From Altibacter lentus (lineage in GTDB: Bacteria; Bacteroidota; Bacteroidia; Flavobacteriales; Flavobacteriaceae): a stretch of DNA of 64,000 nucleotides. Positions 45,907-47,759 of this stretch are shown piece after piece (positions within the stretch are counted from its first letter, which is position 1; each line of letters begins with the position of its first letter). The notes below the pieces were generated by a model, which saw only the letters and a program-made list of their open reading frames with translations, was not told the origin of the DNA and did not search any database. The stretch lies in NCBI RefSeq assembly GCF_000746845.1, contig NZ_KN050846.1, positions 751,394-815,393 of the forward strand, in the 5' to 3' direction. Position numbers and translations under genes: made by a program.

Positions 45907-47014
45907 ATGATTACATACGATCAGCTTAAAGATCTTAGAGATCGCCTGGATGCGTTAAGGAGGTATCTTTGACGTTGCCGGAAAGCGAATAGAAATTACC
46001 AACGACGAAGAGAAAACCTTCGATCCCAACTTTTGGAATAACCCACAGGAAGCCGAAGCTTTTATGAAAATCCTTCGGAATAAAAAGAAATGGGTCACCG
46101 ATTATGAAACGGCTGTCACACTCACCGACGATGCCGAGGTGATCTTTGAATTCTTTAAAGAAGGAGAAGGAACTGCCGAAAACGTGGAGACCCGCTACGA
46201 GGAGGCCCTCGAAGCGATTGAAGCATTGGAGTTTAGGAACATGCTGAGTGAAGAAGGGGACGATCTAAGTGCGGTACTTCAGATCACGGCAGGCGCCGGA
46301 GGCACCGAAAGTTGCGATTGGGCCGGCATGCTCATGCGTATGTATCTCATGTGGGCCGAAAAAAACGGTTTTAAGGTAAAAGAACTCAACTTTCAAGCAG
46401 GAGACGTTGCCGGTGTTAAGACGGTCACCCTTGAAATTGAGGGCGATTATGGCTTTGGTTGGTTGAAGAGCGAGAATGGGGTGCATCGATTGGTACGGAT
46501 CTCTCCTTTCGACAGTAATGCGAAGCGGCACACAAGCTTTGCAAGCGTGTACGTATATCCGCTTGCCGATGATTCGATCGAGATCGACATCAATCCTGCC
46601 GATATTTCCTGGGATTTTGCTCGAAGCAGTGGCGCTGGGGGCCAAAATGTGAATAAAGTTGAAACAAAGGCCATACTCACCCATCATCCCAGTGGTATTG
46701 TGATCCATAACAGTGAAACGCGATCGCAGTTGGAAAATCGTGAGAAAGCAATGCAAATGTTAAAATCGCAACTGTATGAGATCGAACTTCGGAAACAACA
46801 GGCGCAACGTGCAGAGATCGAGAACAGCAAGATGGCGATCGAGTGGGGTTCACAAATACGGAACTATGTCCTGCACCCCTACAAACTGGTAAAAGATGTG
46901 CGAACCGGTCATGAAAGCGGTAACACAGATGCGATTCTGGACGGACAGATCGACGGTTTTTTAAAAGCGTATTTGATGATGACCGGGCAAGGAGAAAAAA
47001 GCGAGGAATTATAA
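45907..47014 (+). CDS. prfB: Peptide chain release factor 2, programmed +1 frameshift
   Basis: 368-residue release factor made from two frames. The first 21 codons (from ATG at 45907) run to an in-frame TGA at 45970-45972; reading resumes in the +1 frame at GAC 45971. This is the classical RF2 autoregulation site, in which low RF2 lets the ribosome shift. The class II stop-reading motif SPF is at residues 199-201 and the peptidyl-hydrolysis GGQ at 244-246. A frame opening only at 46064 would lack the N-terminal domain and is not the real gene. No usable T-run terminator follows on this strand. Confidence 0.95.
45957..45973 (+). promoter_or_regulatory. RF2 recoding site
   Basis: AAGGAGG (45957-45963), a 3-base spacer and CTT TGA C (45967-45973). 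Order and spacing equal those of E. coli prfB, where the internal Shine-Dalgarno sequence and the slow TGA drive the +1 shift. Confidence 0.93.
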
Positions 47015-47058
47015 AAAAACAAAGGGAACTTGATTTAAAAACACCAACGTTCCCTTTG
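47012..47058 (-). terminator. Expression-platform terminator of the TPP-like riboswitch
   Basis: Minus-strand arms CAAAGGGAAC (47058-47049) and GTTCCCTTTG (47029-47020), extended inside by UUGGU/AUCAA, followed by seven T residues that end at the prfB stop codon. On the plus strand no T run follows, so it works only for minus-strand transcripts. Confidence 0.8.
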
Positions 47059-47061
47059 CAA

Positions 47062-47140
47062 ATCATATTCCTTCAGTTGGCATTACCCGACGAAGTTCTA
47101 TGGGTATATTCTCAGCTATAAATTAGCACCCCAATATGAT
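47062..47140 (-). ncRNA. TPP riboswitch-like aptamer, orphan
   Basis: Read on the minus strand, the RNA shows a perfect 8-base P1 (AUCAUAUU 47140-47133 with AAUAUGAU 47069-47062), GGGGUGC (47132-47126), GCUGAGA (around 47116-47110), UACCC (47106-47102), then GAAC, UAAUGCC and GAAGGAA. These are the THI-box hallmarks in the right order. The P4/P5 arm departs from consensus: CCUGAUC and GCGUAGGG read CUUCGUC and ACUGAAGG. A terminator follows 3 bases after P1. No thiamine gene lies downstream: the RNA runs into the 3' end of prfB, antisense. TPP aptamer identity is firm; function is open. Confidence 0.85.
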
Positions 47141-47144
47141 AGAC

Positions 47145-47152
47145 TAAATATA
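47145..47152 (-). promoter_or_regulatory. -7-like box for the riboswitch RNA
   Basis: Minus-strand TATATTTA, one mismatch to TAnnTTTG. It ends 4 bases before P1 of the aptamer, so a transcript started here would begin at the aptamer. No TTG at the right distance. Confidence 0.35.
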
Positions 47153-47222
47153 CAACAAAATATTTATTTACTATTCTCTTTATCAAATATTTAACATCAA
47201 AAAAAAGATAACGATTATTTAG

Positions 47223-47282: not shown

Positions 47283-47759
47283 TTGAAACCCGCCAGCCTT
47301 GCACAACTAAAGAAAGAACTGAAACACAAATCGGTTGACGAACTGCAAGCGCTTGTCATTCGATTGACAAAACACAAGACAGAAAACAAAGAGCTCCTCA
47401 CCTATTTACTGTTTGATGTAGAAGATGAAGCGGGTTTTATTCAAAATACCAAGGAAGAACTGGATCGTTATTTTTCAGAAATACATCACACCAATTTTTA
47501 CTATATCAAAAAAAGCTTGCGAAAGATCCTTCGCATTCTAAAGCGGTACATTCGGTATTCTCAAAACAAGGAGACTGAGGTAGAGTTATTACTCTATTTT
47601 TGTGAGAAGATGTCAGCTTTCAGCCCTTCTATTCAAAAGAACAAGGCTATGTTGTATGTCTACGATAAGCAGAAGGAATTGATCGAGCGAAAGATCAAGG
47701 CACTTCATGAAGACCTGCAATTTGATTATACCGCCGAACTTAAATCGCTACCCTTTTAA
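47283..47759 (+). CDS. Conserved alpha-helical protein, unknown
   Basis: 158 residues, basic, predicted almost wholly alpha-helical, no signal peptide or cysteine cluster. It begins MKPASLAQLKKELKHKSVDELQAL, and the middle IKKSLRKILRILKRYIRYSQNKETEVELLLYFC is a long amphipathic helix pair. I recall similar sequences in other flavobacteria that start at the same MKPA, so the TTG at 47283 is taken as start codon; the nearest ATGs upstream are out of frame. Function unknown. An ArsC-like gene follows after 42 bases. Confidence 0.7.
   Translation: MKPASLAQLKKELKHKSVDELQALVIRLTKHKTENKELLTYLLFDVEDEAGFIQNTKEELDRYFSEIHHTNFYYIKKSLRKILRILKRYIRYSQNKETEVELLLYFCEKMSAFSPSIQKNKAMLYVYDKQKELIERKIKALHEDLQFDYTAELKSLPF

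Follow-up and report, generated by a model that had tools for sequence, protein, structure and literature searches.

In TPP riboswitches (RF00059), the aminopyrimidine of the ligand is bound by the CUGAGA T-loop (residues 39-43), and the pyrophosphate or its metal ions are contacted by G60, C77, and G78 in J4-5/J5-4 (accessible text of PMC3764141 and PMC7824784). Riboswitches acting in trans are known and are called rare in the available part of PMC7266159. According to the accessible text of PMC8079631, SreA and SreB of Listeria are SAM riboswitches that act in trans as terminated aptamer RNAs, and SreA is at the same time the leader of a transporter operon and a cis switch. The same source describes Rli55 and AspocR, both controlled by B12 riboswitches, in which the aptamer is tied to a noncoding RNA instead of an mRNA and controls elongation into a longer functional RNA. 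The antisense SAM-I riboswitch consists of an aptamer and a terminator opposite a convergent gene, and its target lies within the pathway of the ligand (PMC2258182, accessible text). A further sensor of the thiamine pathway with a terminator, the HMP-PP riboswitch (thiS motif), is a cis regulator whose aptamer lies inside the terminator (PMC6478431, accessible text). Barrick and Breaker pointed to a small number of aptamers that score high yet lie apart from genes that would fit them, for which the text available to us leaves trans-acting RNAs or recent orphaning open (PMC2258182).

An element comparable to these systems is located on the minus strand beside prfB in the window, i.e., the whole stretch of 64,000 nucleotides of Altibacter lentus DNA that was analyzed. 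It is referred to as TPP-type sRNA, which denotes a predicted unit of about 130 nt with an aptamer and an intrinsic terminator. Its features and the surrounding genes are as follows.

47013..47141 (-): predicted TPP-type sRNA of about 130 nt, comprising the aptamer and an intrinsic terminator, with a predicted start near 47139-47141
47052..47143 (-): aptamer of TPP type, matched by RF00059 with 58.6 bits (gathering score 54.3)
47133..47140 (-): P1 5' strand, ATCATATT, pairs with 47062-47069
47062..47069 (-): P1 3' strand, AATATGAT, pairs with 47133-47140
47110..47115 (-): CTGAGA T-loop, pyrimidine sensor, kept (sequence reading)
47071..47095 (-): P4/P5 arm, almost one continuous helix, lacking the TGA...CG pyrophosphate-pocket motif (motif test)
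47020..47058 (-): hairpin of the intrinsic terminator, CAAAGGGAAC...GTTCCCTTTG; across 73 sequences, 99.7% of its cells are paired
47013..47019 (-): terminator T run, 7 T, overlapping the prfB TAA at 47012-47014 (+)
47145..47152 (-): promoter-like -7 box, TATATTTA; TATNTTTA exact in 23 of 31 loci
47190..47196 (-): TGTTAAA, an upstream element whose start lies 44 nt ahead of that of the -7 box
46064..47014 (+): prfB, release factor 2 (PF03462, PF00472; PCRF and RF-1 domains), convergent neighbor, outside the conserved unit
47283..47759 (+): divergent conserved ORF without Pfam match, adjoining the TPP-type sRNA in the Altibacter lentus lineage only
45751-43343 (-): DUF5117/DUF4953 'Met-zincin' ORF, next sizeable minus-strand gene, beyond prfB

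The Rfam covariance model matched the minus strand at 47143-47052 with an E-value of 6.2e-9; it is the sole match at or above any gathering score in the whole window. The THI-box aptamer with perfect P1 that had been read from the sequence alone was thereby confirmed, P1 comprising 8 perfect pairs (47140-47133 with 47069-47062). The terminator, correctly placed 3 nt past P1 in the original prediction, has arms of 10 pairs (47058-47049 with 47029-47020) with 19 nt between them, and was not listed by a simple pattern scanner because the loop limit of the latter is 8 nt. The 146-nt strand had a folding z of -3.4, with none of 200 shuffles equally stable; its unconstrained minimum-energy fold contained the terminator and lacked the textbook aptamer. 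Among the ORFs of the window, no thi gene was found adjoining the TPP-type sRNA, as had been stated, and its upstream neighbor lies on the opposite strand.

The TPP-type sRNA resembles the TPP riboswitch in the P1-P5 fold, the T-loop, and the TAAT sequence of L5. Unlike RF00059 riboswitches, it lacks a thi gene in cis, a switchable expression platform was not found, and the pocket motif is absent from all 73 distinct sequences collected. When 20 other copies of the TPP-type sRNA were scanned with RF00059, 6 reached the gathering score and 14 stayed below it; routine annotation would therefore miss the latter. With SreA and SreB it shares the form of a terminated aptamer RNA, but trans action was shown there and is proposed here, and in contrast to SreA, most carriers of the TPP-type sRNA have no cis gene (PMC8079631). 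The conserved unit does not continue past the terminator, which distinguishes it from Rli55 and AspocR (PMC8079631), and the neighboring gene varies, whereas the antisense SAM-I riboswitch is directed at the pathway of its ligand (PMC2258182). The HMP-PP riboswitch is a different motif (PMC6478431).

A covariance model (R1) was built from four sequences, those of the window genome (G000), the congeners G001 and G002, and G081, which belongs to another genus. In this alignment, the invariant stretches lie in the aptamer and the terminator, and the terminator loop is variable. Scanning 397 sampled genomes of the family with R1 yielded 33 matches above 63 bits in 31 genomes, the next scores being 58 bits or less; as R1 scored only 8 candidates per genome, absences from family genomes are not proven. 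A single match above 63 bits was found in 29 of the 31 carriers and two each in G211 and G268. The locus was inspected in 30 carriers (G381 left out), which represent 21 of 237 genera. From a pattern scan of named genomes with 90 stretches, 80 loci were listed, and a refined covariance model (R2) detected 56 elements of at least 80 bits in 54 of them. The named carriers include Altibacter, Aequorivita, Gelidibacter, Gramella/Christiangramia, Winogradskyella, Formosa, Zunongwangia, and Arenibacter, as well as Lacinutrix, Hanstruepera, Marixanthomonas, Marinirhabdus, Luteirhabdus, Robertkochia, and Pukyongia; the remaining ones are other Flavobacteriaceae or unclassified records. The 26 listed loci without such an element stem mostly from Bacilli, Clostridia, and other distant groups; it was also absent at a Lutibacter, a Chryseobacterium, and an Aequorivita MAG locus (L200, 57.8 bits). 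The two sets overlap in 13 RNA sequences. At class level, R2 gave matches in 22 of 395 genomes, of which only G000 and G156, both known carriers, exceeded 100 bits. The other 20 scored 53-66 bits, 19 of them outside the family and one (L116) inside, and these loci mostly have a receptor-like or thi-like gene next on the same strand (named by eye; exceptions are L114 and L117, with no downstream ORF listed, and L118, whose downstream ORF matched neither type by eye). In these 395 genomes, no further strong member was found.

Both sets together provided 86 model matches from 84 loci (L144, a copy of L003, was left out) and 73 distinct sequences with pairwise identities of 0.50-0.99. Standard pairs made up 94.0% of the pair cells. 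Double changes, found in every one of the 7 helices, affected 25 of 33 pairs, compared to 5-11 in slid controls; the alignments were fitted to the structure, which favors it. All 7 modelled pairs of P1 showed double changes, and P3 and P5 were less well kept (79.5% and 84.4% of cells paired). A first set of 31 sequences agreed with this result (24 of 33 pairs, slid controls 5-9). The window genome and congener G001 share 126 of 128 positions of the RNA (98%), whereas fourfold degenerate sites are identical at only 55 of 117 in prfB and 20 of 40 in the divergent ORF (47-50%); in the adjoining intergenic stretch, 94 of 125 aligned positions are identical, with 19 gap positions. The corresponding values are 104 of 127 (RNA) versus 16 of 37 (fourfold sites) for G002 and 103 of 124 versus 7 of 23 for G081. 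Judged by these substitution patterns, the TPP-type sRNA is under selection as RNA, in line with the earlier argument against simple decay.

The gene order around the element is variable (neighboring genes were mostly named by eye). In congener G001, the TPP-type sRNA lies at the same place beside prfB. In G002, the same divergent ORF adjoins it and the convergent gene is quinone-oxidoreductase-like, and in G081 a GNAT-like gene is inserted between the TPP-type sRNA and prfB (both by eye). The single RF00059 match of congener G003 is a receptor leader, the TPP-type sRNA being absent; near relative G093 has an amidohydrolase-like gene and no TPP-type sRNA in the same slot. When ORFs of at least 100 amino acids are counted, 23 of the 30 family loci have the next ORF on the opposite strand, 19 of them at most 40 nt away, and 7 have it on the same strand, 162-637 nt further on. 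The named-record elements gave a similar picture (opposite strand 42 of 56, same strand 13, and no next ORF in the record for one). The convergent neighbor is prfB in 12 of these 56; hisI-, murI-, and chloride-channel-like genes were seen elsewhere (by eye). Antisense action on prfB as a conserved function was rejected, since the convergent gene differs in G002, G081, and other lineages. In none of the 30 family and 56 named-record loci was a thi-like gene the nearest one, by eye. By contrast, the best 30 RF00059 loci of the family nearly all precede thiS/thiC-, thiM-, or thiD-like genes or similar ones (by eye). Upstream, a gene on the same strand is present in 20 of the 30 family loci and 40 of the 56 named records (13 of these 40 only 55-61 nt away), so that some TPP-type sRNAs could be processed 3' ends; the upstream neighbor is on the opposite strand in 10 and 13 loci, respectively, and 3 more records have no upstream ORF.

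The thiC gene had no match in any of the 10 genomes around the window, the window genome itself included, regardless of whether they carry the element. Among the 397 sampled family genomes, 315 lack a thiC match and 82 have one. An exclusive tie of the TPP-type sRNA to the loss of thiC was rejected, as 3 of the 31 carriers (including G381) possess thiC, compared to 82 of 397 overall.

Ahead of the RNA, the motif TATNTTTA begins 8-14 nt before the start of the RNA model, exact in the 23 loci mentioned and inexact in the other 8. We take it to be close to the flavobacterial -7 box TAnnTTTG. The element TGTTAAA is exact in 18 of the 31 loci and not exact in 13; 17 of the exact copies lie 43-45 nt ahead of the best -7 match. 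In random stretches and shuffles, exact motifs occurred at a rate of 1-4%. TGTTAAA is also found ahead of a single thi leader among 28 (L034, at 57 nt) and of none among 5 receptor leaders, and a loose pair (TGTTAAN, 35-39 nt, TANNTTT) is found three times in the window, namely here and on the plus strand at 1984 and 62070; the motif is therefore enriched rather than exclusive, and the notion of an upstream element unique to the TPP-type sRNA could not be fully upheld. TGTTAAA might serve as an UP-type element or be bound by an activator. The -7-like box, often accompanied by TGTTAAA, suggests that the TPP-type sRNA has a promoter of its own; promoter-like and terminator sequences are conserved apart from the neighboring genes. 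The mean pair probability of the terminator was 0.87-1.00 in all 31 sequences when folded without ligand or co-transcriptional kinetics. In transcripts folded up to the 3' arm of the terminator, no shared antiterminator was seen and the 5' arm had no consistent partner. A covarying antiterminator was likewise not detected in the 73 sequences, where covariation was strongest within the structure and the strongest off-structure pairs were mostly neighbors of P1 (or P5) pairs. The terminator is thus predicted to be constitutive and to form always.

Regarding the ligand, the T-loop reads CTGAGA in 65 and CTGAAA in 8 of the 73 sequences, and the L5 TAAT loop is kept. A crude test for the two-sided pyrophosphate-pocket motif was negative for all 73; one-sided matches occurred in 4 (left) and 12 (right), some of them outside the pocket, and the aligned J5-4 columns read CG in 3. 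P4 and P5 are stacked nearly end to end (CTTC-GTCGG...CCAAC-T-GAAG). The two-sided motif was found in 29 of 30 thi-type leaders, which are the best-scoring RF00059 loci and thus favor an intact pocket, and in 15 of 19 leaders outside the family (L116, as an in-family leader, was left out). Since the pocket motif is lost and the T-loop kept, the usual recognition of TPP is doubtful, and it seems fair to infer a ligand bound by its pyrimidine end. TPP itself appears a doubtful ligand, and we consider the chances even that the true ligand is another compound.

The TonB receptor leaders of the family display a similar trait, as the two-sided motif was present in 1 of 25 (L002, L005, L006, L007, L069, and L120-L139), 20 of which had been chosen from middling RF00059 scores. 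These leaders may sense thiamine rather than TPP, judging from their sequence. The window genome has two RF00059 matches, the TPP-type sRNA and a weaker one (36.1 bits, C1:2251055), whose aptamer precedes a gene encoding a TonB-receptor plug domain. Inspection by eye also revealed this receptor leader in G081 and in congeners G001, G002, and G003. We call the product a thiamine receptor because of its leader, the name stating a putative substrate. In Bacteroides thetaiotaomicron, riboswitch-linked transport operons were unresponsive to thiamine and the biosynthesis operon was responsive (PMC5613172, accessible text). In Flavobacterium psychrophilum, expression of a thiamine leader, one of five Rfam predictions, was coherent with that of the genes it belongs to (PMC9723704, accessible text).

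The element is very probably a small RNA gene and not the leader of another gene. The full reading that we prefer, with a probability of roughly 0.6, is a free-standing sRNA gene that senses a ligand carrying the HMP/thiamine pyrimidine and acts in trans. Such a gene would consist of a promoter of its own, an aptamer of the thiamine family that begins almost where transcription starts, and a terminator that acts constitutively. The putative ligand would most likely be thiamine itself, and its binding would change the stability, the folding, or the partners of the free RNA, which would then act in trans. The computations show that the unit and its structure are conserved, that promoter-like motifs precede it, that it mostly stands without a cis gene, that no conserved switch involves the terminator, and that the pocket motif is gone. 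Transcription, ligand, and trans action are what we infer; for the last of these, taken alone, the balance tilts toward its occurrence. The upkeep of the element in many marine bacteria without a cis gene suggests sensing of a B1-type compound combined with action elsewhere in the cell. In the 73 sequences, no conserved single-stranded seed was seen outside the aptamer, where near-invariance is confined to the first residues of the T run and the CAAAG/CTTTG base of the terminator. When tested for duplex formation with the receptor aptamer or leader of 4 genomes, the TPP-type sRNA gave 1 of 8 comparisons at 1/100 shuffles and the rest at 26-99/100, with no consistent signal. Only tentatively do we extend the reading to a gene-less family of metabolite-sensing sRNAs of marine Flavobacteriaceae that dropped the pocket, as most receptor leaders did, and that conveys a thiamine-type ligand, not TPP, as a signal in trans.

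The lack of a conserved seed would also suit a passive role, in which the free-standing RNA buffers its ligand or, as a sponge, takes up a protein or an RNA polymerase partner, and does not regulate through base pairing. This is improbable, as 29 of the 31 carriers have a single match above 63 bits, which would contribute little to buffering unless expression is very high, and no partner is known. A small chance is left for an ordinary TPP riboswitch whose readthrough at low ligand yields a transcript antisense to the convergent gene (prfB in the window). The overlap of the T run with the prfB stop and the convergent gene next in 23 of 30 and 42 of 56 loci, mostly very close, fit such a function, and precedents exist in the SAM-I riboswitch controlling an antisense RNA (PMC2258182) and the B12-riboswitch antisense RNA AspocR (PMC8079631), both as far as the accessible texts go. 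However, the convergent gene varies by lineage, all 31 sequences are predicted to form the terminator, a covarying antiterminator was not detected, and the pocket motif is lost. Of the original suggestion of a short RNA with readthrough into antisense prfB, the short RNA therefore survives and the antisense part does not. Unlikely as well in our view is a ligand-controlled 3' end of the upstream gene, where aptamer and terminator in the 3' UTR tune termination or mRNA stability. The frequent upstream genes on the same strand, 13 of them at 55-61 nt, would agree with it, but in the window and the other loci with an upstream neighbor on the opposite strand no such gene is available, and promoter-like motifs directly precede the RNA.

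A decaying remnant of a thi operon or receptor gene that has been lost, the other option of the original prediction, is very improbable. It could draw on the missing thiC matches in the 10 genomes around the window, on the absence of the element from G003, and on recent orphaning being one option named for such matches (PMC2258182, accessible text). Against it stand the near-identity of the RNA beside silent sites that are near 50% identical, the intact terminator with covariation across 73 sequences from many genera, the 3 carriers that still have thiC, and the separate aptamer of the receptor gene. A recent deletion was likewise rejected on the basis of recurrence, covariation, and the 126 of 128 identical positions.

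The TPP-type sRNA offers enough sequences to decide against orphaning, the option that the accessible text of PMC2258182 leaves open. Among the results listed by the literature searches, which did not cover preprints or most subscription journals, neither a free-standing TPP-type RNA of Flavobacteriaceae nor the pocket loss was described. Should the ligand have changed as well, thiamine sensing would be set apart from TPP sensing in a family in which 315 of 397 sampled genomes lack a thiC match, and a free-standing natural aptamer RNA would become testable in cultured strains.

Cis effects are possible in the loci with a next ORF on the same strand (7 of 30 and 13 of 56). In both sets together, these ORFs follow at 79-684 nt and include NAPRTase and glutaminase genes. 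In L155, L176 (glutaminase), L197, and L198 (NAPRTase), the same-strand gene starts 79-119 nt past the terminator; because of this close distance, a cis role may exist there. The divergent ORF at 47283-47759, to which Pfam assigns no function (no match), has relatives in 89 of 149 family genomes, and its listed start is not the same in the window and in congener G001. Two copies of the TPP-type sRNA, about 3 kb apart and in the same orientation, are present in L162 (935-1063 and 3890-4017) and L176 (883-1013 and 3865-3994).
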